Origin: Arbacia lixula
Lineage: Eukaryota > Echinodermata > Echinoidea > Arbacioida > Arbaciidae
Direction: 5' to 3'
DNA length: 64,000 bases
Assembly (NCBI GenBank): GCA_963669155.1
Contig: OZ022589.1
Location: 6,849,723 to 6,913,722 of the forward strand
In this document: positions 2,901 to 56,500 of the stretch, piece after piece
Layout: each line of letters opens with the position of its first letter
How positions within the stretch are numbered: the stretch's first letter is position 1
Made by a program: the position numbers and the translations under genes
Notes under the pieces: generated by a model
The model's database searches: none
Seen by the model: only the letters and a program-made list of their open reading frames with translations
What the model was told of the DNA's origin: nothing

Positions 2901-4413
2901 CGAGATTGGGAATTGGAGGGGAATAGTTTGGCTATTGTGCCTATTGTGTCTATGATTATTATCTCGGTTCGGTTAACAGCATAAATGTCCCATTTCTCTC
3001 CAGTTTATTTGCGTTCCCAAACATCTCTCATGTACTCTGTATGAAGACTCCTGAATCAAAGTGCAATATATGGAATGCGGGTCATAAAATCCGTATCCGT
3101 GTTTGCATACCAAGGTTATGTGTATTCAATATGTGTTTAGTTGCTCTTTTATTAACACAAGACACCGGACGGATTTCATTTTGCTAGTCGTATTGAGTAT
3201 TGGTATTGAGTTTTGTGAGTAAACGGTAGTCATAACAGAGACGGATTGAGTCCATGCTACCGGGAAAGCAGAAAAGAGGTACGTGATATTTAGAGAGCAC
3301 CGTAAAACAAATGATTTGCTTTAGAACAAGACTTTACCACGATGACAGTGACGGGGTGTGTGTATGGTTTCCACAGAATAGCTTTGTAACGCGGTTTACA
3401 CAAAATCAAACTATTACTTCATCTTCTCCAGGCTTACCGTCTGGCATGCTTGCTACGATTATCTTTCACTATTATATGTGTATGAGTTGGTGTCATTATA
3501 GTATAGTGGCCACAACGAGTTATAGATATAGTTTTCCCGCAGTAATGGTAAAAAAAAAAACAGTTACAGAGGCATTTGGAACACTGTAAACATGTGAAAG
3601 CGTTTACAGATTACCAGCCTATGCCGTCAGAGAAATATATTGTGGGAATCGTTCAAGTGTCTAATAAACGAATGCTAATTCCTCCAAAACGCAAGATTCG
3701 CCCATATGTATGAGGAGGTTTATTGCGGCGGCCATCTTTGTGGTCAACGACGATTGTCCCGAAATGCGGTGAATGACCATTAAATAGCGTAACCATGGTT
3801 ACTTCTGAACTAAGAATCACGGCGAGACAAATCTGAAGATGATTTTATTCTGAAGTTGAAGTGAAAATAAGAGTCACACAGGAGAGTTGTTTTGATGATC
3901 ATATCGCGTTGTATGCACGAAAGTTTAATCAGCGATCAGTACATTGTGTAATTGTTATTGCAGGCTTGATAATATCTGAAAGAAACATGCATATTCCGTA
4001 TGTTTAGCATAAAACTTGCTACGTTCGTTTCAATATTGTTGTCATGCCAAAGCCAGCTTAGTTTCGCTTGGTATTATCTCGACATACATATGTATCTCTA
4101 CCCCATGCCCCAAGTTCCGTTCTTCATAACTTGATGCAGAATTGTTTGGTGCATTTTCATATCTCATTAGGTCGCCAGTGAAACCCCATCTGCATTTGAC
4201 CAATCTACGCCTTATATGGGTACGAGATTCTGAATGAAAGCCAGCAGAGATCCTTGATTAGCGTACCTGTTGGGAATGTTATCATGTAATCCACTGCTAG
4301 CATCTCTCCTACCATCGCGACCGGTCCATCGCCATTACCATCGCACCAAGATCTATCTCCAAGATCCTAATCCAGGACCCTCTCTCTCTGCATAACGCTA
4401 CCTGACATGTACT
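2894..4413. other. Upstream flank of the GPCR gene
   Basis: Single-copy, AT-rich sequence. No coding exon is recognised. The promoter of the downstream receptor presumably lies here, but no TATA box or initiator could be fixed with confidence. Confidence 0.4.
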
Positions 4414-5847
4414 ATGTCTATCCTTATGATTGAGGAGAACGTCAACCGCACTGGATGGCGGATGGGCTATATTACCGTGTGCAATGTGACATTCGATGTC
4501 GTTCCGGGAGAGTACATCCTACACGACCAAGGCCCGCGGATCGTCCTCGGCATCCTCATCCTTCTCATCTTCATTCTCGGCGTCTTCGGGAATCTCTCCG
4601 TCATTCTGGCCGTGGCGCTGTCCAAGCGTCTCCAGACGATCACCAACGTCTTTGTCGTCAACCTTGCCGTAGCCGACCTTGTTACCAGCACCTTCCTGCC
4701 CGTGCACGCATCCACGCTGCTCAGCGGCAACGGGTGCTACATCCCCGACCTCCTCTGCAAGTTTGTCGCCGCCGTCTCGCTCACGACAATCTGCTGCAGC
4801 GTCGTCACATTGGCTATGATCGCCTTTAATCGGTTTCACGTCATCTACGGCGTGCTCAAACCTGAGCCCGTCTTCGTGAACGCCTTCCGCGTCCGAAACA
4901 TTCTAATCATGGTCGCCTTCTCGTGGCTGTACCCTATTGTGCTGATGTGCATCATCATCCCCCTGGCTCCAGGCACTTTAGGCTACTCGCTTCAGTACAA
5001 GGTGTGTCTACAAAACTCGGATGAAGACTTCTCGGACTACCTGACGATCATCGCATGCCTTCTGGTTCAATTCCCCGCCTTCGTCGTCATCATCGTCTGC
5101 TACTCCATAGTATTCAAGATGTTCCGACGGCATCAAGACGAAATGAACTCAATGCTTGTACCATCCGTCAGATACCCGACAAGCTCAAGTGAGACTAATA
5201 CGACCTTCGTGGAAGACAGCGTAGACGGTTGCGGACCCAAATCATCACACAGTGAAAACATACCCAGTCAGCCGGCCGTTCTCCATGATATAGGATCAAT
5301 TGATGATCATACCTGCTCGAATGAGTGCGAGAAAAATGACATATCACCAACCAATGGGACATCGCCCGAACGCGACCCGACGTCTTTCGTCTCTACCGCA
5401 ATCCATCCTGAAAACCCACCAGATAATCCGAACCACTTGTCGCCGGCGACGATGAAGTCTCTTCCGCGTTCCTCGTCCGAGGGCACTCTTCGAAGCGTCT
5501 CTTCCGATCTACGGCGGGAGCGATACAAGCAGCAGCTCAAGATCACCAAGAATCTCTTCATCGTCGTGTGCGTGTACACTATCTGTGTTATGCCGCCGGC
5601 GATCACGTACCTCATCCCATCCAGCGACCCCGCTGTGCCCTGGCTGACTGTGCTCTTCCTCTGTAATTCCTGCGCAAACCCCATCATCTACAGCCTGCGC
5701 CACCCAACTTTCAGCGAGGTTCTGACCAGCATGTTCAGGTGCAGGCTCCGGGACATCCCCCAGCCGTCCGGCCTTCTGAAGTGGGTCTATGACCACGGCC
5801 CGAAAGGGTGCTCATCGAAAGACAAATCCGGCGAATCCACAGCTTAA
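4414..5847 (+). CDS. Class A (rhodopsin-type) orphan GPCR, Tre1/GPR84/melatonin-receptor-like
   Basis: An intact, intronless 477-residue seven-span receptor. Seen in the sequence: two N-glycosylation sites near the N-terminus (N11, N24); TM1 about 43-68 with GN (N60); TM2 about 78-101 with LAVAD (D88); C115 before TM3 and C198 in the second outer loop as the expected disulphide pair; TM4 about 162-186 with W171; TM5 about 206-235; TM6 about 378-402; TM7 about 409-429 with an intact NPIIY (422-426). The third inner loop is very long (about 239-377) and rich in Ser, Thr, Pro and Asp. A Cys at 443 after helix 8 could be palmitoylated. An in-frame TAA at 4393 makes 4414 the first usable ATG. Oddities: the DRY motif reads NRF (139-141), and CWxP of TM6 reads CVMP (391-394), so the toggle tryptophan is Val. 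NR(Y/F) is known in the Tre1/Moody-type group. The ligand is unknown. It could equally be one of the lineage-expanded, single-exon sea-urchin receptors. Confidence 0.93.
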   Translation: MSILMIEENVNRTGWRMGYITVCNVTFDVVPGEYILHDQGPRIVLGILILLIFILGVFGNLSVILAVALSKRLQTITNVFVVNLAVADLVTSTFLPVHASTLLSGNGCYIPDLLCKFVAAVSLTTICCSVVTLAMIAFNRFHVIYGVLKPEPVFVNAFRVRNILIMVAFSWLYPIVLMCIIIPLAPGTLGYSLQYKVCLQNSDEDFSDYLTIIACLLVQFPAFVVIIVCYSIVFKMFRRHQDEMNSMLVPSVRYPTSSSETNTTFVEDSVDGCGPKSSHSENIPSQPAVLHDIGSIDDHTCSNECEKNDISPTNGTSPERDPTSFVSTAIHPENPPDNPNHLSPATMKSLPRSSSEGTLRSVSSDLRRERYKQQLKITKNLFIVVCVYTICVMPPAITYLIPSSDPAVPWLTVLFLCNSCANPIIYSLRHPTFSEVLTSMFRCRLRDIPQPSGLLKWVYDHGPKGCSSKDKSGESTA

Positions 5848-24990: not shown

Positions 24991-25421
24991 GGAATAGATA
25001 AATAGAAAAAATGAAATGGTTTCGAAGCAATCAGTTGAATATGATTAGCACTAAAATGTTTTTGTTGGAAAAGGATGTATTATTTGCTGTCAGCCCAATG
25101 AATACAACAATACTAGAGAAGAAAAACAAATGTCCAGGCACTGTTCGCATCGGAGCGGTGGTATCTAAACAATTTGTATAATTTTCAAAATAATTTTCAA
25201 ACAACATTATGGTTACTCATTTTAGCCCTTCTTATAACGGTATCAACGTGCGAGATGTTTATCACTCTATCGAATACCATTCATTCCAATATTCTAAAAG
25301 GCATTTATATTTCAAAAAGATTTGGAAGGTTCAATCAGACGGAAATAATGTCCTAATCGTTTATATAGAGTATTTTCTTTTGCACGCGGTACTTGGGTAT
25401 GAACGAGTCTTATCCTTCCAT

Positions 25422-25601
25422 GGGTGTGTTTCACCAAGCTGTTCGTAAGTTACGAACGACTTTACGAACAACTGGTTATCCCTTCTTGTGCTAAATCAGA
25501 TTCTCAATGAACAAAGTGTAGTATCGCATTTAGCACAAGAAGGGATCACCAGTCGTTCGTAAAGTCGTTCGTAATTTACGAACATCTTGGTGAAACACCC
25601 C
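25422..25601. mobile_element. 180-bp foldback MITE (family H), abutting the TU-like element
   Basis: A near-perfect ~73-bp inverted repeat with a ~35-bp loop. Arms start GGGTGT(GT)TTCACCAAG, include ACGAACGACTTTACGAAC, and end CCCTTCTTGTGCTAAAT. No coding capacity. It touches the next element without a gap. Confidence 0.9.
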
Positions 25602-25607
25602 TGTTAC

Positions 25608-25825
25608 ACCCACAAATGTAATAATCGCCCACAAATGTAATAACGCCCACAAATGTAATAACACTTTACCCACAAATGTAACAACGCCCACAAATGTAAT
25701 AACACTTTACCCACAAATGTAATAATTTCACCCACAAATGTAATAATGCACTTTACCCACAAATGTAATAATTTTGAACCACCCACAAATGTAATAATCA
25801 CTTTACCCACAAATGTAATAATTTT
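25608..25825. repeat. Left outer domain of the TU-like element
   Basis: Ten copies of CCCACAAATGTAATA separated by short spacers of a few types (CG, ACTTTA, TTTCA, TTTTGAACCA). The spacer order mirrors that of the right arm. Confidence 0.95.
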
Positions 25826-28800
25826 TAGGGGACATTTTGTCGAATTTCTTCAAAACTGAAACCCTGTACTGATGCATTGGTATAGCGCGCAGTCTTTATT
25901 CCAGACCCAATTATAGGCCAAATCACCTTATCTCTGTTGAATAACGTGAGAATGGAGCCTAGTCTTTCCTCCAGACCCGAAAATTTCAAAAATAAGAACG
26001 TAGTCTTTTTTCCAGACCCAATTATTTCATTTTTGGAATCTTCAAAACCAGGGCCCGATCGTCTTATTTTTGGGGCATAACATGAGAATCGAGTGTAGTC
26101 TCTCCTCCAGACCCGATGATTTAAGAAAAAAAAAAGCGTAGTCTTTTTCCAGACCCAATTTTTTCATTTTTTTTAATCTTCAAAACCAAGGCCCGATCAT
26201 CTTATTCCTGAGGGATAACCTGAGAATCGAGTCTAGTCTTTCCTCTAAACCCGATTATTTAAAATATGAGAGCCTAGGCTTTTCTCCAGACCCTTTTCAT
26301 TCAATTTTTTAAATCTTCAAAACCAAGGCCCCATCATCTCACTCCTGTAGAATAACGTGAATATTGAGTCTAGTCTTTCCTCCAGACCTGTTTTTTCCAA
26401 AGTAAGAGTGTAGTCTTTTCTCCAGACCCATTTAATTCATTTTTGAAACCTTAAAAAATAAGACCATCATCATCTTATTCCTGTGGAATAATGTCAACAT
26501 CTTCCAAACTAAGACCCTGACTGTGATAAATCAAATGTTTAGAGCGTAGTCTTTCCTCGTAATTGAAATTTAAAAACAAATCTTCAAAACTAAGATCCTA
26601 TCAACTAATTCCGTTTTTTTTTAAATAAAAAGATACAACTCAAAAAGTCAAGCACTTTGAGCATGTACATAATGTGTATATAGCTCATTATAAATACTCA
26701 TCATTATCGTCATCTTTTCTTGGTGATGCATGGCATCGCTTTACATTGTTACATATGTGGATACAACACGTCTCAGTGGTCGGCGGTCACACAAACTGAC
26801 GAATCAGTCAAAATAGTACATATATATACTTGTATATAACGCACAGAGGTGGAACCGATTCGATGGTACGTTGACTGTCGACTATTCTTTCAATCATCTT
26901 TGCCTATATTCTAATGGTCTAATTCAATGGTCGTATAGAAACAAAGTAATTGGATAAAATTTGGGCGATTTAAAATCATTACCTTTGTTGTTAAAGGGCG
27001 TTACTACGTTTGTGGTTGAAACTATTGCATTTGTGGGTAAAGTGTTATTACATTTGTGGGAGTTATTACATTTGTGGGTGTCTCGTACACCCACAAATGT
27101 AATAACACTTTACCCACACATGTAATAATTTCACCGACAATTGTAATAATGTTTTATGGTCACTAATTCGATTGCTTCTATTTTCGACGACCATTGAAAT
27201 CCAGGATATTTGTGGGCGATAGAATATTTCCATGATTAAAAAAAAAAAAATCCGTCCGTGATCAATGATCCATCACATCGGTTCCTCCTGTTTGTGTTAT
27301 ATGACCATTTGGACTGATTCGTCAGTTCGTGTGACCACCGAACAATCATTTATTTGCGACGTGTTGTTCCACATATGTAACAATGTTAAGAGATGCCATG
27401 CATCGCCAAAAAATGATGATGGCACTGATGAGTACTTAGAATGCACTAAATCCACCTTATGTAGATGCTCAAAGTACTTAATTGAAAAGAAAAAAAACAC
27501 AGGAATGAGATAATAGCCCAGCTAACAAAAGAGAAACGTACATATATGCATACATACGCACACATGCATACATATACGCACACATACCCTAATCCTATAC
27601 TTACCTATCCTAATCATTTCTTACCCTATCCTGCTCCTATCGCATTGTAACACCCTCATTAGTACTATGGCAATATGCTCTACAAAATATTGCATTCAAT
27701 TAAGTGGCATTTATGTTTTTAATGTCTAAATTTCAAAACGTACCATCGAATCGGTCCCACCTCTGAGCGTTATATACAAGTATATATATGTACTATTTTG
27801 ACTGACTCATCAGTTTGTGTTACGGCCGACCACTGAGACGTGTTGTATCCACATATGTAACAATGTAAAGCGATGCCATGCATCGCCAAGAAAAGATGAC
27901 GATAATGATGAGTATTTATAATGAGCTATATACACATTATGTACATGCTCAAAGTGCTTGACTTTTTGAGTTGTATTTTTTTATTTAAAAAAACGGAATT
28001 AGTTGATAGGATCTTAGTATTGAAGAATTGTTTTTAAATTTCAATTACGAGGAAAGACTACGCTCTTATCATTTGATTTATCACAGTCAGGGTCTTAGTT
28101 TGGAAGATGTTGACATTATTCCACAGGAATAAGAAGATGATGGTCTTATTTTTTAAGGTTTCAAAAATGAATTAATTGGGTCTGCAGAAAAGACTACGCT
28201 CTAACTTTTAAACTAACTGGGTCTGGAGGAAAGACTAGAAACGATTCTTATCTTATTCCACAGGAATAAGATGATGGGGCCTTAGTTTTGAAGATTTAGA
28301 AAATAAATTAAATGGGTCTGCAGAAAAGACTATGCTCTTACTTTTGAAATAACCGGGTCTGGAGGAAAGACTAGGCTTGATTCTCATGTTATTCCACAAG
28401 AATAAGATGATAGGGCCTTGGTTTTGCAGATTTAAAAAAACAACGAAATATTTGGGTCTGGAAAAAGACTACGCTCTTATTTTTGAACTACATGTACTCG
28501 GGTCTGGAGGAAATACTAGGCTCGATTACCATGTTATTTCACAAGAAAAATATAACGGGGCCTTGGTTTTGAACATTTGAAAAAATGAAATAATTGCGTC
28601 TGGAGAAAAGACTACGCTCTTAATTTTGAAATAATCGGGTCTGGAGGAAGGACTAGGCTTGATTCTGATGTTATTTCATAAGAATAAGATGACGGGGTCT
28701 TGATTTTGAAGAATTGAAAAAAATGAAATACTTGGGTCTGGAGAAAAGACTACACTCTTACTTTGGAAATAACCAGGTCTGGAGGAAAGGCTAGACTCAA

Positions 28801-29354
28801 TTTTCATGTTATTCTACAGGAGTGAGATGATGGGGCCTTGGTTTTGAAGATTAAATAAAAATGAAAAAATGAAAAAATGAATGAAACGGGTCTGGAGGAA
28901 AGCCTAGGCTCTCATTTTTTTTTAAATAATTGGGTTTAGAGGAAAGACTAGACTCGATTCTCAGGTTATCCCTCAGGAATAAGATGATCGGGCCTTGGTT
29001 TTGAAGATTCAAAAAATGAAAAAATTGGGTCTGGAAAAAGACTACGTTTTTTTTTTTTTTAATTATCGGGTCTGGAGGAGAGACTAGGCTCGATTCTCAT
29101 GTTATGCCACAAAAATAAGACGATCGGGCCTTGGTTTTGAAGATTCCAAAAATGAAATAATTGGGTCTGGAAAAAAGACTACGTTCTTATTTTTGAAATT
29201 TTCGGGTCTGGAGGAAAGACTAGGCTCCATTCTCACGTTATTCCACAGAGATAAGGTGATCGGGCCTATAATTGGGTCTGGAATAAAGACTGCGAGCTAT
29301 ACCAATGCATCAGTACAGGGGTTTCAGTTTTGAAGAAATTCGACAAAATATCCC

Positions 29355-29600
29355 CTAAAAATTATTACATTTGTGGGTAAAGTGATTATTACATTTGTGG
29401 GTGGTTCAAAATTATTACATTTGTGGGTAAAGTGCATTATTACATTTGTGGGTAAAGTGCATTATTACATTTGTGGGTGAAATTATTACATTTGTGGGTA
29501 AAGTGTTATTACATTTGTGGGCGTTATTACATTTGTGGGTAAAGTGTTATTACATTTGTGGGCGTTATTACATTTGTGGGCGTTATTACATTTGTGGGTG
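29355..29600. repeat. Right outer domain of the TU-like element
   Basis: Eleven copies of TATTACATTTGTGGG. The order of spacers is the mirror of the left arm, except that one TAAAGTGCATT-spaced unit is duplicated. Confidence 0.95.
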
Positions 29601-29605
29601 TAACA

Positions 29606-30100
29606 ACCCCCCAGGTCCTCACCTCTCTCTGAGTCTGGAAGCGTGTTGAAAATGCGTTTGGTATCAGTACAGAGTATGAATACTGGAGAACCCCGCTGGC
29701 GGTCTTTGGTGGATCCGAATCTATACCCTTTAAGTGTCGAGTGAGAGACGTTGTGCAACACTTCCAGCACTCGACACTCACGCATTAGTGGTAGAGACAG
29801 TCGCTGTGTTTCCCATTTGTAAAAGACATGAAACTCGGCAGGGATCAGCAATATCCTCTGTATGAAGTCTCAATCTCATAGTCATAGCCTCAGGAACATG
29901 TTTAGGGAAATGAAAAACTATCCTTGTTTACATTCCGATCGCATCGTTCATTTGTCCATGTCAGCGCGCATGTGCGGGCATTACTCCCATTGAACGCATG
30001 CACTTTGGAGCGGACCGATGAGGACCTTAGCTCAAAGCCGCGTCTTCGGTCTTTAGGTTTGTTTTGACCTGAAGAAGGGAAATCCTCTTTAAAAGTGTGA
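29606..30100. mobile_element. Flank of the TU-like element with a MITE family B fragment
   Basis: About 29815-30075 matches part of family B: 'ACATGAAACTCGGCAGGGATC', GAAAAACTATCCTTGTTTAC, AACGCATGCACT, and a 'CGGTCTTTAGG' block as at 46631-47095. A hairpin GTGTCGAGTG...CACTCGACAC lies at about 29733-29777. Confidence 0.55.
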
Positions 30101-37690: not shown

Positions 37691-39417
37691 GTTAAAGTTT
37701 ACCTGCAAGACTCTCTTTTGACAAATAACTTCACATGGGTTGCTTGGATTACAACCTAACTTGGGTCATAGATGCACTGGGGGTACCTTCATGTTATGGT
37801 ACCATTGGAGGTCACAGGATAAGGTCAAAGGTCATTTGAGGTCATACGTTAAAGTTTACCTGCAAGACTCTCTTTTGACAAATAACTTCACATGGGTTGC
37901 TTGGATTACAACCTAACTTGGGTCATAGATGCACTGGGGGTACCTTCATGTTATGGTACCATTGGAGGTCACAGGATAAGGTCAAAGGTCATTTGAGGTC
38001 ATACGTTAAAGTTTACCTGCAAGACTCTCTTTTGACAAATAACTTCACATGGGTTGCTTGGATTACAACCTAACTTGGGTCACAGATGCACTGGGGGTAC
38101 CTTCATGTTATGGTACCGTTGGAGGTCACAGGATAAGGTCAAAGGTCATTTGAGGTCGTACGTTAAAGTTTACCTGCAAGACTCTCTTTTGACAAATAAC
38201 TTCATATGGGTTGCTTGGATTACAACCTAACTTGGGTCATAGATGCACTGGGGGTACCTTCATGTTATGGTACCATTGGAGGTCACAGGATAAGGTCAAA
38301 GGTCATTTGAGGTCATACGTTAAAGTTTACCTGCAAGACTCTCTTTTGACAAATAACTTCACATGGGTTGCTTGGATTACAACCTAACTTGGGTCACAGA
38401 TGCACTGGGGGTACCTTCATGTTATGGTACCGTTGGAGGTCACAGGATAAGGTCAAAGGTCATTTGAGGTCATACGTTAAAGTTTACCTGCAAGACTCTC
38501 TTTTGACAAATAACTTCACATGGGTTGCTTGGATTACAACCTAACTTAGGTCATAGATGCACTGGGGGTACCTTCATGTTATGGTACCGTTGGAGGTCAC
38601 AGGATAGGGTCAAAGGTCATTTGAGGTCATACGTTAAAGTTTACCTGCAAGACTCTCTTTTGACAAATAACTTCACATGGGTTGCTTGGATTACAACCTA
38701 CCTTGGGTCACAGATGCACTGGGGGTACCTTCATGTTATGGTACCGTTGGAGGTCACAGGATAAGGTCAAAGGTCATTTGAGGTCATACGTTAAAGTTTA
38801 CCTGCAAGACTCTCTTTTGACAAATAACTTCACATGGGTTGCTTGGATTACAACCTAACTTGGGTCATAGATGCACTGGGGGTACCTTCATGTTATGGTG
38901 CCGTTGGAGGTCACAGGATAAGGTCAAAGGTTATTTGAGGTCATACGTTAAAGTTTACCTGCAAGACTCTCTTTTGACAAATAACTTCACATAGGTTGCT
39001 TGGATTACAACCTAACTTGGGTCATAGATGCACTGGGGGTACCTACATGTTATGGTGCCGTTGGAGGTCACAGGATAAGGTCAAAGGTTATTTGAGGTCA
39101 TACGTTAAAGTTTACCTGCAAGACTCTCTTTTGACAAATAACTTCACATAGGTTGCTTGGATTACAACCTAACTTGGGTCATAGATGCACCACGGGTACC
39201 TTCATGTTATGGTACCGTTGGAGGTCACAGGATAAGGTCAAAGGTCATTTGAGGTCATACGTTAAAGTTTACCTGCAAGACTCTCTTTTGACAAATAACT
39301 TCACATAGGTTGCTTGGATTACAACCTAACTTGGGTCATAGATGCACTGGGGGTACCTTCATGTTATGGTACCGTTGGAGGTCACAGGATAAGGTCAAAG
39401 GTCATTTGAGGTCAGGG
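37691..39417. repeat. 157-bp minisatellite, 11 units, with nuclear-receptor half-site cluster
   Basis: Units start at 37691, 37848, 38005, 38162, 38319, 38476, 38633, 38790, 38947, 39104 and 39261. All are exactly 157 bp, with only substitutions between them. Each unit starts GTTAAAGTTTACCTGCAAGA and ends in a run of AGGTCA half-sites: AGGTCA, 7 bases, AGGTCA, 1 base (A), AGGTCA, 4 bases (TTTG), AGGTCA. That makes a DR1 and a DR4 per unit in most copies. Because 157 is not a multiple of three, protein frames through it are not real. Confidence 0.97.
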
Positions 39418-53180: not shown

Positions 53181-53316
53181 AGATGGATAATTCAATATGT
53201 TTTGGACAACCAACTCGAAATCTGAAGAGGGCTAATTCAATGTGTTTTGACGACCTATACTCAAAATCTAAAGACCATTGATTCTATATATGTATGGATT
53301 ATTTTTCTGATTGTAG

Positions 53317-53525
53317 GTTCCAGAAGGGGCGCATCTACACCTACATCGGGGAGGTGGTGGTTTCAGTCAACCCGTACAGGGCTGTGAACATCTACGGCAA
53401 GGAGCAGATAGAGGACTACAGGGGCAGGGAGGTGTACGAACGCCCCCCTCACATCTTTGCCATCGCCGATGCAGCCTATAAGTCAATGAAGAGGAGGGCG
53501 CAGGACACATGTATTGTCATTTCAG
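53317..53525 (+). CDS. MYO1D: Myo1D-like exon A
   Basis: Acceptor TTGTAG|GTTCCAG; donor TTTCAG|GTAAAC. The first base completes a codon begun in the missing upstream exon; the exon ends in phase 1. It encodes the stretch from [12 protein letters not shown] to TCIVIS and the first base of the P-loop Gly. Confidence 0.93.
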
Positions 53526-56500
53526 GTAAACAGAGGCCCCCCCCCCCCCCAGATTTCTTACACCCTTTCCAAAAGGCAAACATGTTATTGAACCTACCAA
53601 TACCTGTACATGTACCAGAGGGGGGGGGGGGGGGTGTTAAATTTCCAGGTGCAAAGAAAGCCCCAAAGTTAAGAACCTGTGGAAAATTCTGCATGTGCTG
53701 TAGATATCAACAATCTACACTGATTTTCTATTAATTTCCTGTTGCAACATATTCATTATAGGTATTTTATGCATTTATTAATGACTCTGTCTCTCCCTTT
53801 CCCCATTCTCTTTTCCCTCCTGTCCTCTCATTTTTCTAGTGGAAGAAATCATTATTAAGCGGTATTTGCATTTCACCTGTTTTCCCAAGATGTAAGTTAC
53901 ATTAAGTCTTTTTTTACCTCGAGATCCATGTCTTTATTCCCTTCCCATTAGCATCAATTTGCACAGTGAAACTCACTTCTTGCTTCACTCTTGGCTAGTC
54001 ATGCCCTCGGCTGAGCAATCATTATTGAAATGAGAACACAATTAATTCTATTAGCATGATAAGAGAAAAGCGGAAGCTAGTGCGAGGGAAGTCCATTGAG
54101 GTAGCATACGTGTGCAGGCACTTGTGCCTCCATGGGAGTGTTTTATTAGCTGGTGTCAATATTGATTGGATAGGGGTGATCAAGGACAAATTGACTTGGG
54201 ATAAATTATCAGCCCAGGAAACTACTGCAAGCTGGCGACTCATTGAGAAATAGTGTGTTTTTCAAGTGTGTTATGAAATACATTTGGAGTATACAAGTTT
54301 ACATATGAACATGGTCTTTTGTTACAGGACAGGTGTATGTGAACAACAATTGAAAGGTAAAAAAATGATCAATGACAAATTGACTTGAGGATAAATTATT
54401 AGCCCAGGAAATTGCTGTAAGCTAGCAAGTCATAGAGAAATAGCATGGTGTTCAAGTGTGTTATAAAATACATTTGGAGTATACAAGTTTACATACTACA
54501 CTATGAACACGGTCTTTTGTCATGTCTGTGAACAACAATAGAAAGGTGCCAAATTGATCAAGGACAAATTTACTTGAGGATAAATCATTAGCCCAGGAAA
54601 CTGCTGTAAGCTTGCAAGTCATTGAAAAATTAATGTAGTTTCAAGTCTGTTATGAAGTACATTTGGAGTATACAAGTTTACATACTACACCATGAACATA
54701 GTCTGCTATGCGGACAAACTTTGAAAGGGATCCTTTGAAATTTTGTTTGCGTAACAAAAGACCATGTTTATAGTGCTGGTGCTGGTTATCTCCAAAGGGC
54801 TGAGGGTGGGGGGGGGGGGGGGCTCTTTTTGAAGCCTGTTGCCATGAGACAAATCCACTGCAACCCCACTATTTCGTGACCTGGCTAGGCTATCCTGATC
54901 GGAACTAGCTATTTCGCCTCATCGAGCTAATGAAGACGCACCTACTGTGTCTGGTACCCATGTATAAGAAAAATGCATGTTTTACAGGGGGCTCCTTTCT
55001 TGTGTGTCGGTGACTAAATCAAGTTAAGGCGCTGCATTTTTTTCACTGGGCATGTCATATTTTCTGTTGCTATGAATACCATGTATATGTTTGGATGATT
55101 CAAAAGAACATTCTAGAAATATCAAGAGCAGAGCATGTGCAGAAGCAAAGCAAGTTTCTGTTGTTCTCGCAACCAAATATCAAGTTGAGTTCTGATGGAA
55201 ATGAACAATGATCAGGTCCACATGCCGTTGTCACAGTATTGTAACATCAATGATATAATAATGATAATATTAAGTGCTTTACATAACAGATTTATATCAA
55301 AAGCGCTTTACATAACAATCGAACAGTGGTGCACTAGTGGCCATGAAATCATTTGATCCATGTGCAAAATTTGACTTGTACTGCATTTTAACAACAGTAT
55401 ACATGTAGGTGTGTCTGGATCAGCCCAAATGCTATTTTGTATTACATTATGAATATAACTCTGGATCTTATGAATATAACTTTTTTTTTGGTTGTCTTTT
55501 TGCTGGTGTTTGTTTTCTGATTAGGTGAGAGTGGCTCGGGGAAGACAGAAGCCTCCAAGATCATCATGAGATATATCGCCGCTGTCACCAACGTCAGCAA
55601 ACAGTCAGAAATCGAAAGGTGAATAGCTGTTAGGAGTGTGCCTGAGCATGCTGTAACATAAGTTTGATCTCATCATTAAAGACAGGGTGTCCTTTTCTTG
55701 CACTTCAGAGAAATACAATTTTGTGAAAAACATGGAAATTCAGAGAAAGAACTGAATTAGAACTTCCCTCCAAATAAGAACTGGAACCTGAATTTAAGCA
55801 AAGTGATTATTATCTCTAGACTTTGAGGAGGTTTTGGGCAGGTCGTCCGAAATCTACAGCCTAGAGACCTGTGAATGTGTGCAATTTGGATTTATTCCTG
55901 TATCGTGCGCTGAGAGGGACAAAAATGATTATGAATCTAGACTGTGCTTGGTGAGTTAATGTAAACAAGGATAGTTTTTCACTTTTCTTGAAAATGTTTG
56001 TTAAGCTCTGACTGAGATATGGTATGCGTATTTTGCAGATTTCTACAGAGTTTCATGACTTTTGCAAATGGGACACCCTATCTTTAACATAACTTTGATC
56101 GTATTAATAAACGATGAGACATCACATGGAATGTAATTTCGTGCAATTTACATTTTTCTCATTGTTTATCATGTTAACAATACTATCATGTTCTCTGAAA
56201 TTCATGTGGACGTTTGATAAAAAACACACAGTAAAATATGTAGTTTAATTCCAGAGTACAATGTGCACTAAATGCAATGTATGCTGATCATATCTTGTGG
56301 AATATTGTATTCATTGTATTTCTCTTCAATTACTTAATAAGTAGTCATTTAATGTCAATCATTAATGCACCTTTATGAATGATGGCATACCATGTGTTGT
56401 GTGTGCTAATGATTTCATATCTATTCAAAAATAGAATTCGCATGAAACAACTTGACCTTTGAAATAGTCAACATTCAAGAGAGGAGCTCACTTTTTCATA

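Follow-up and report, generated by a model that had tools for sequence, protein, structure and literature searches.

A foldback DNA transposon of Arbacia lixula and its longer, integrase-bearing relatives with the same ends

Foldback elements are often orphans, the enzyme that moves them being unknown or assigned from the length of the target-site duplication (TSD). In this report we focused on a 64,000-nucleotide stretch of the Arbacia lixula genome (contig OZ022589.1, positions 6,849,723 to 6,913,722; the window), in which positions 25602-29605 are a complete foldback element of 4,004 bp with mirror-image arms. Our main finding is that this element is probably a non-autonomous foldback DNA transposon, moved in trans by the kind of rve/DDE transposase encoded by rarer, longer relatives with the same ends. 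This reading is carried by the arms, ends and 5-bp TSDs, which are the same in gene-less and gene-bearing copies, and by an integrase gene that runs on from the arms without a break in two copies, one of which also encodes an OTU domain. A single genome holds both gene-less foldbacks and same-arm copies encoding a candidate transposase of the retrovirus/Gypsy-integrase type. If true, an integrase-type element can give rise to foldback architecture, and the family offers an enzyme and a binding motif that are open to testing, as well as an uncommon preference for homopolymeric G/C targets.

The first line of evidence is the recurrence of the ends. A 20-base end pattern searched genome-wide with at most two mismatches gave 163 matches on one strand and 184 on the other, where the reversed control gave 9 and 5 (14 in all); the total of 347 includes some internal centres lying no more than two bases off the pattern and is not an element count. 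The 100 of these 347 end places that were listed, all exact and all on contigs C1-C12, contain 31 hand-counted pairs; three pairs span 7.5-10.2 kb and a fourth 11.6 kb, and all four were examined. The sequence-only reading of this DNA had proposed looking for the same ends around a transposase-coding copy, a suggestion that proved fruitful: the ends do recur, and two broken copies with an integrase, one with an additional OTU domain, were found. The longer of these, a 10,197-bp copy on contig C7 (L041 with L045), has ACCCC on both flanks, 10 short motifs and 136-bp arrays on each side, arms that align over 1,512 columns at 86%, and two identical outer arms. It encodes a frame of 282 amino acids (aa) with an rve integrase domain (PF00665, 5.2e-12), followed by an overlapping 647-aa frame with the rest of the integrase gene and an OTU domain (PF02338, 4e-13). 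The other, L039 on contig C2 (9,020 bp), has a single 360-aa integrase frame (PF00665, 2.9e-8) that stops beside an internal deletion. The OTU domain was detected in L041 only, the corresponding part being missing from L039, and a single alignment of the two copies, 94% identical over 3,408 columns, crosses from the arm to the gene. The integrase core was found in none of the 27 other copies. In the best 113 of 710 candidates scored in a genome search—a scope that applies to all statements on this gene's distribution—integrase identity exceeds 90% in these two elements only; below that come a single short match of 65% (C19:3730224) and relatives of 39-43%, with all others at 27-35%; many in this last range lie in long open reading frames (ORFs), which we take as Gypsy-like. 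Two DD34E-spaced integrase fragments, L078 (C2:34238895) and L079 (C19:5339588), show 42-43% identity. Two other candidates were rejected. The 11.6-kb pair L015/L042, considered as a coding copy, has flanks that do not match and is probably two fragments. The 7.5-kb L040 is an ordinary copy whose middle module is split by a long interspersed nuclear element (LINE); its 982-aa open frame (L040:2208-5153), with a LINE-type endonuclease and reverse transcriptase, is nested in that module and was rejected as the family mobiliser.

The second line of evidence is the TSD. A perfect 5-bp duplication is present in 36 of 46 end pairs, a set made up of 24 pairs from the first locus set (the window copy plus 23 loci), 16 and 6 others, and including all 31 listed pairs, of which nine come from the first set and the rest are the 16 and the 6. 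Among the 30 loci fetched, L010, L015, L025, L026, L030, L033 and L038 had no usable end in the stretch and were omitted from the first set, L015 re-entering the 46-pair test paired with L042. Because many targets are homopolymers, a cleaner test is provided by the 24 pairs without a homopolymeric 5-mer on either flank: 19 match at 5 bp, one at 3 bp and none at 4, 6, 7 or 8 bp. With shuffled partners the same test averaged 2.0, the highest value being 7. The other 22 pairs have a homopolymer in at least one flank, and CCCCC or GGGGG make up only 0.41% of 5-mers, a background taken from the window only. Runs of G or C are favoured as targets, which would reflect a preference of the integrase for them. 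An assembly artefact is very unlikely because the same architecture stands at many places, each carrying its own, differing 5-bp duplication.

What type of integrase do these copies encode? The spacing between the second and third catalytic residues is 34 (DD34E) in L041, L039 and the relatives L078-L080, which have S at the expected E position just before the frame ends, and 35 in four Gypsy-like integrases of the same genome (L082-L085). In a small tree of eleven proteins from this genome, which does not place the DD34E group among named superfamilies, the DD34E proteins and L081 are grouped with a support of 1.000; L087 gave no usable frame, L081 spans 92 residues, and neither L081 nor L086 gave a spacing. 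By these comparisons the DD34E integrase groups apart from the Gypsy-like integrases sampled in this genome. The H2C2 zinc finger model PF17921, which has likewise been used for a Ginger1-derived gene (PMC12863088), has no match in the integrase protein P0004 at E up to 10; it matches three of the four Gypsy-like yardsticks at 1.3e-14 or better, and neither the fourth (L085) nor the relatives L078 and L079. YPYY and GPY/F motifs had no clear match in the L041 and L039 integrase frames when judged by eye without a profile. The nearest solved structures by sequence are foamy-virus integrases (3.2e-15), and the TGT..ACA ends and 5-bp duplication fit a retroviral-type integrase. The IS481 NCBIfam model was rejected as a discriminator: it scores L039 at 94 bits, but the four Gypsy-like integrases at 75-98 bits.

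The link between enzyme and ends needs to be weighed with care, since several observations speak against it. Both integrase genes are broken, so that no working enzyme was seen: that of L041 is split into its two overlapping frames, and that of L039 lacks the part after the integrase domain and carries N where the second catalytic D would stand. The candidates scored yielded two coding copies and no more, both possibly from a single event, and nothing but co-occurrence joins the enzyme to the ends. Furthermore, 10 of the 46 end pairs have no perfect duplication, although two of them (L016, L017) match at four of five bases. The integrase gene might accordingly be an unrelated insertion in two copies, with the true transposase elsewhere or lost, a reading favoured by the rarity and defects of the coding copies; one of them is a deletion relative to the other, and descent from one insertion is possible. 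A nested transposon, however, is expected to lie within middle sequence and to be bounded by its own ends, as seen for the LINE in L040, and the L041 core bears no such signature. It lacks long terminal inverted repeats, and none of its 17 ORFs of at least 70 aa has a reverse-transcriptase domain; its left side directly adjoins the 136-bp array, and on the right the only resemblance to the inner segment/middle module of the window copy is about 76 bp at 74%. Nor was the gene found at high identity outside such elements, and both the duplication length and the TGT..ACA ends fit an integrase. We therefore regard an unrelated insertion as unlikely. On the reading that we prefer, in which the family is moved by this integrase, we infer that the core is the original gene-bearing middle and that the foldback copies are derivatives that kept only the arms, for which direction two defective copies, perhaps of one origin, are a thin base.

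A different parentage had been put forward by the sequence-only reading, which saw in the window element a relative of TU. TU elements of Strongylocentrotus purpuratus have an 8-bp TSD and long inverted repeats whose outer domain is made of short repeats, and their middles vary. In modular layout the likeness is real, the element having a short-repeat outer domain and an inner domain in long inverted arms, with different middles behind the same arms in this family. This comparison is by description, not by sequence, and the TSD speaks against it: duplications of 5 bp in 36 of 46 pairs, with none of the 24 non-homopolymer pairs matching at 8 bp, leave the TU relationship unsupported. Moreover, an independent origin of foldback structure in separate lineages has been suggested (PMC4079207), and we consider membership in TU quite improbable. 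Still less can be said for a Mutator-type foldback in which the integrase genes are passengers. Most described foldbacks are of that type, but the duplication is 5 bp here versus the 8-10 bp reported for Tetris (PMC4079207), and no Mutator transposase was found among the scanned ORFs of L041, parts of L039 and L040, and the window copy, the other copies not having been scanned for domains. This makes a Mutator origin highly improbable.

How would an integrase move such elements? By analogy, it may bind the tandem 16-bp motif at both ends. Tn7 has repeated binding sites at its ends. Tandem motifs have likewise been reported as transposase binding sites for Galileo (PMC4079207). The integrase would then cut at TGT/ACA and join the ends to phosphates of the target spaced by 5 bp, with a preference for G/C runs, and gene-less copies would be moved in trans. 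Arrays would change length by repeat slippage, which would explain the unequal motif counts between arms, and the long arms may have grown by slippage and fusion. For the pair of back-to-back internal ends at the centre of the window copy, the simplest account would be fusion of two elements or ends, followed by spread. Transposition in the IS3 family passes through a circular, end-joined intermediate, and the internal end pair could, by analogy, be a fossil of such a circular intermediate with its ends joined end to end.

The architecture of the window element (Table 1) bears out most of what had been described from its letters. The proposed coordinates and length of about 4.0 kb are exact, the first base being that of TGTTACACCC and the last that of GGGTGTAACA (termini TGTTA...TAACA), and ACCCC stands on both sides. 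The modular mirror-image arms—an outer array of a short motif, an inner array of units of about 136 bp and an inverted segment—could be mapped as arrays (short motifs at 25607-25825 and 29361-29599 by repeat analysis) and as inverted repeats of 96-99%: 25626-25772/29436-29582 at 99%, 25859-26135/29047-29323 at 96% and 26616-26872/27737-27993 at 97%. The outer 0.9 kb or so of both arms is 90% alike in the best gapped alignment, and the two sides of the centre are unequal, about 1.5 and 2.5 kb. Long inverted arms, tandem subrepeats and flanking TSDs place the element in the foldback structural class. We also agree that the window copy encodes no recognisable enzyme: the longest ORF wholly inside it has 112 aa, and all eight inside ORFs of at least 70 aa are without a Pfam match above cut-off, two weak matches lying below it. 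Absent from the earlier description is the central back-to-back end pair. Of 24 copies scanned, 15 hold its junction or the reverse complement exactly and four more hold a variant (L013, L018, L035, L036); in L037 the junction is visible on sequence reading only, and it was not found in L014, L021, L028 or L034. L027 has two back-to-back centres in opposite orientation.

Table 1. Features of the foldback element and its flanks (window positions)
Feature	Position	Strand	Basis or remark
Left target-site duplication, ACCCC	25597..25601	+	Identical to 29606-29610
Left outer array: terminus TGTTACACCCACAAATG and 10 copies of ~16-bp motif CCCACAAATGTAATAA	25602..25825	+	Sequence reading, repeat analysis
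Left inner array, ~136-bp units, 4.2 copies	25915..26491	+	Repeat analysis
Inverted inner segment, left copy	26616..26872	+	97% complementary to 27737-27993 (257 bp)
Central pair of degenerate internal end arrays, abutting at 27076-27092 (GGGTGTCTCGTACACCC)	27017..27150	.	Sequence reading
Extra diverged copy of part of inner segment	27368..27479	+	85% identical to 27848-27959
Inverted inner segment, right copy	27737..27993	-	Inverted-repeat analysis
Right inner array, ~136-bp units, 8.2 copies	28116..29267	-	Repeat analysis
Right outer array, ~16-bp motif, 11 copies, ending GGGTGTAACA	29361..29605	-	Sequence reading, repeat analysis
Right target-site duplication, ACCCC	29606..29610	+	Identical to left

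When the element was searched against the genome, 31 of 374 candidate regions were scored and 317 matches obtained. Outer arms (315 bp) from 27 copies are on average 96-97% alike, with per-element medians of 95-99%, and the left arm of the window element shows no difference, in the columns aligned, from one arm of another copy; such identity suggests that this large family spread fairly recently. Homogenisation of arms within elements finds no support: identity is 0.963 within elements versus 0.965 between them (including L039, whose right end is disrupted), and, counting ties, a left outer arm is most similar to the right arm of the same element in 5 of 27 elements, or 6 of 27 with 900-bp arms. 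At least about 490 bp of shared non-coding middle is present in 23 of the 27 copies without the integrase core, and L014, L034, L043 and L044 have almost none of it. L016, L021, L023, L024 and L028 have in common a further mid-element module, 650-660 bp or so in length, about 95% alike and in either orientation; it is not in the window copy or L041.

Outside the element, a palindromic repeat of about 180 bp resembling a miniature inverted-repeat transposable element (MITE) lies at 25420-25600 (GGGTGTGTTTCACCAAG...CTTGGTGAAACACCC) and abuts the left target duplication. At another insertion (L048/L049), the left flank ends in 14 bases matching the same MITE end. Elsewhere in the window, a tandem array of 11 copies of a 157-bp unit (97% matches) occupies 37691-39414, and a rhodopsin-family G-protein-coupled receptor ORF (4396-5844) and a myosin-head exon (53282-53731) flank the element at a distance.

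The presence of an integrase and an OTU domain in the coding copies points to Ginger-like, integrase-type DNA transposons, with which, going by its sequence features, the family is best filed. Ginger1 elements are described as having an rve integrase, an H2C2 zinc finger, a 4-bp TSD (CCGG or CCGT), TGTNR termini, terminal inverted repeats of 40-270 bp and a length of 2.6-7 kb, with a C-terminal OTU or Ulp1 domain in some families, GC-rich targets and, in B. floridae, non-autonomous copies with the same ends (PMC2836005). Our family shares with them an rve domain without reverse transcriptase, an OTU domain downstream, TGTNR termini, GC-rich targets and non-autonomous copies sharing the ends. 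It differs in its 5-bp TSD (none of the 24 non-homopolymer pairs match at 4 bp), arms of more than 1 kb made of tandem arrays, the absence of a detected H2C2, DD34E spacing and a length of up to 10.2 kb. Despite its OTU domain and TGTNR termini, it does not match Ginger1 on features tested here, namely in its 5-bp duplication and lack of a detectable H2C2. Ginger2 is described with an H2C2 zinc finger beside a DDE core, AT-rich targets (RTATAY) and TGTNR termini, the TSD of Ginger2/TDD being 4 or 5 bp, and 5 bp in TDD-4 and TDD-5 (PMC2836005). Integrase type, termini and, for TDD-4 and TDD-5, TSD length are thus shared with Ginger2, whereas the lack of H2C2, the G/C-run targets, the OTU domain and the giant arms are not, and on features tested the family does not match Ginger2 either. 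In the source on IS3EU/GingerRoot and IS481EU, whose main text does not mention an OTU domain, both groups lack an HHCC motif; IS3EU/GingerRoot has a 6-bp TSD, with occasional TG..CA ends in GingerRoot, and IS481EU has TSDs of about 4, 15 or 25 bp and TGT..ACA ends (PMC10045372). An integrase-type transposase without HHCC is common to these groups and ours, and the TGT..ACA ends are as in IS481EU; the 5-bp TSD sets our family apart from both, none of the 24 non-homopolymer pairs matching at 6 bp.

We consider it a real possibility, if somewhat short of an even one, that the family represents an undescribed integrase-type lineage (DD34E, no H2C2, C-terminal OTU, TGT..ACA, 5-bp duplications in G/C runs) whose ends have expanded into giant tandem-repeat foldback arms, a possible explanation for other orphan foldbacks. 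No foldback element with a Ginger-like integrase was found among the titles and abstracts listed from the open-licence literature searched. Among foldbacks of Drosophila, Galileo is assigned to the P superfamily and has 7-8-bp TSDs (PMC4168063), and Tetris, for which no autonomous copy is described as found, is suggested to be a Mutator element with 8-10-bp TSDs (PMC4079207). In both, as in our family, tandem repeats extend the arms, structure is variable and there are copies without transposase (PMC4168063, PMC4079207). Unlike either, the family described here makes a 5-bp TSD and is probably of the integrase type.
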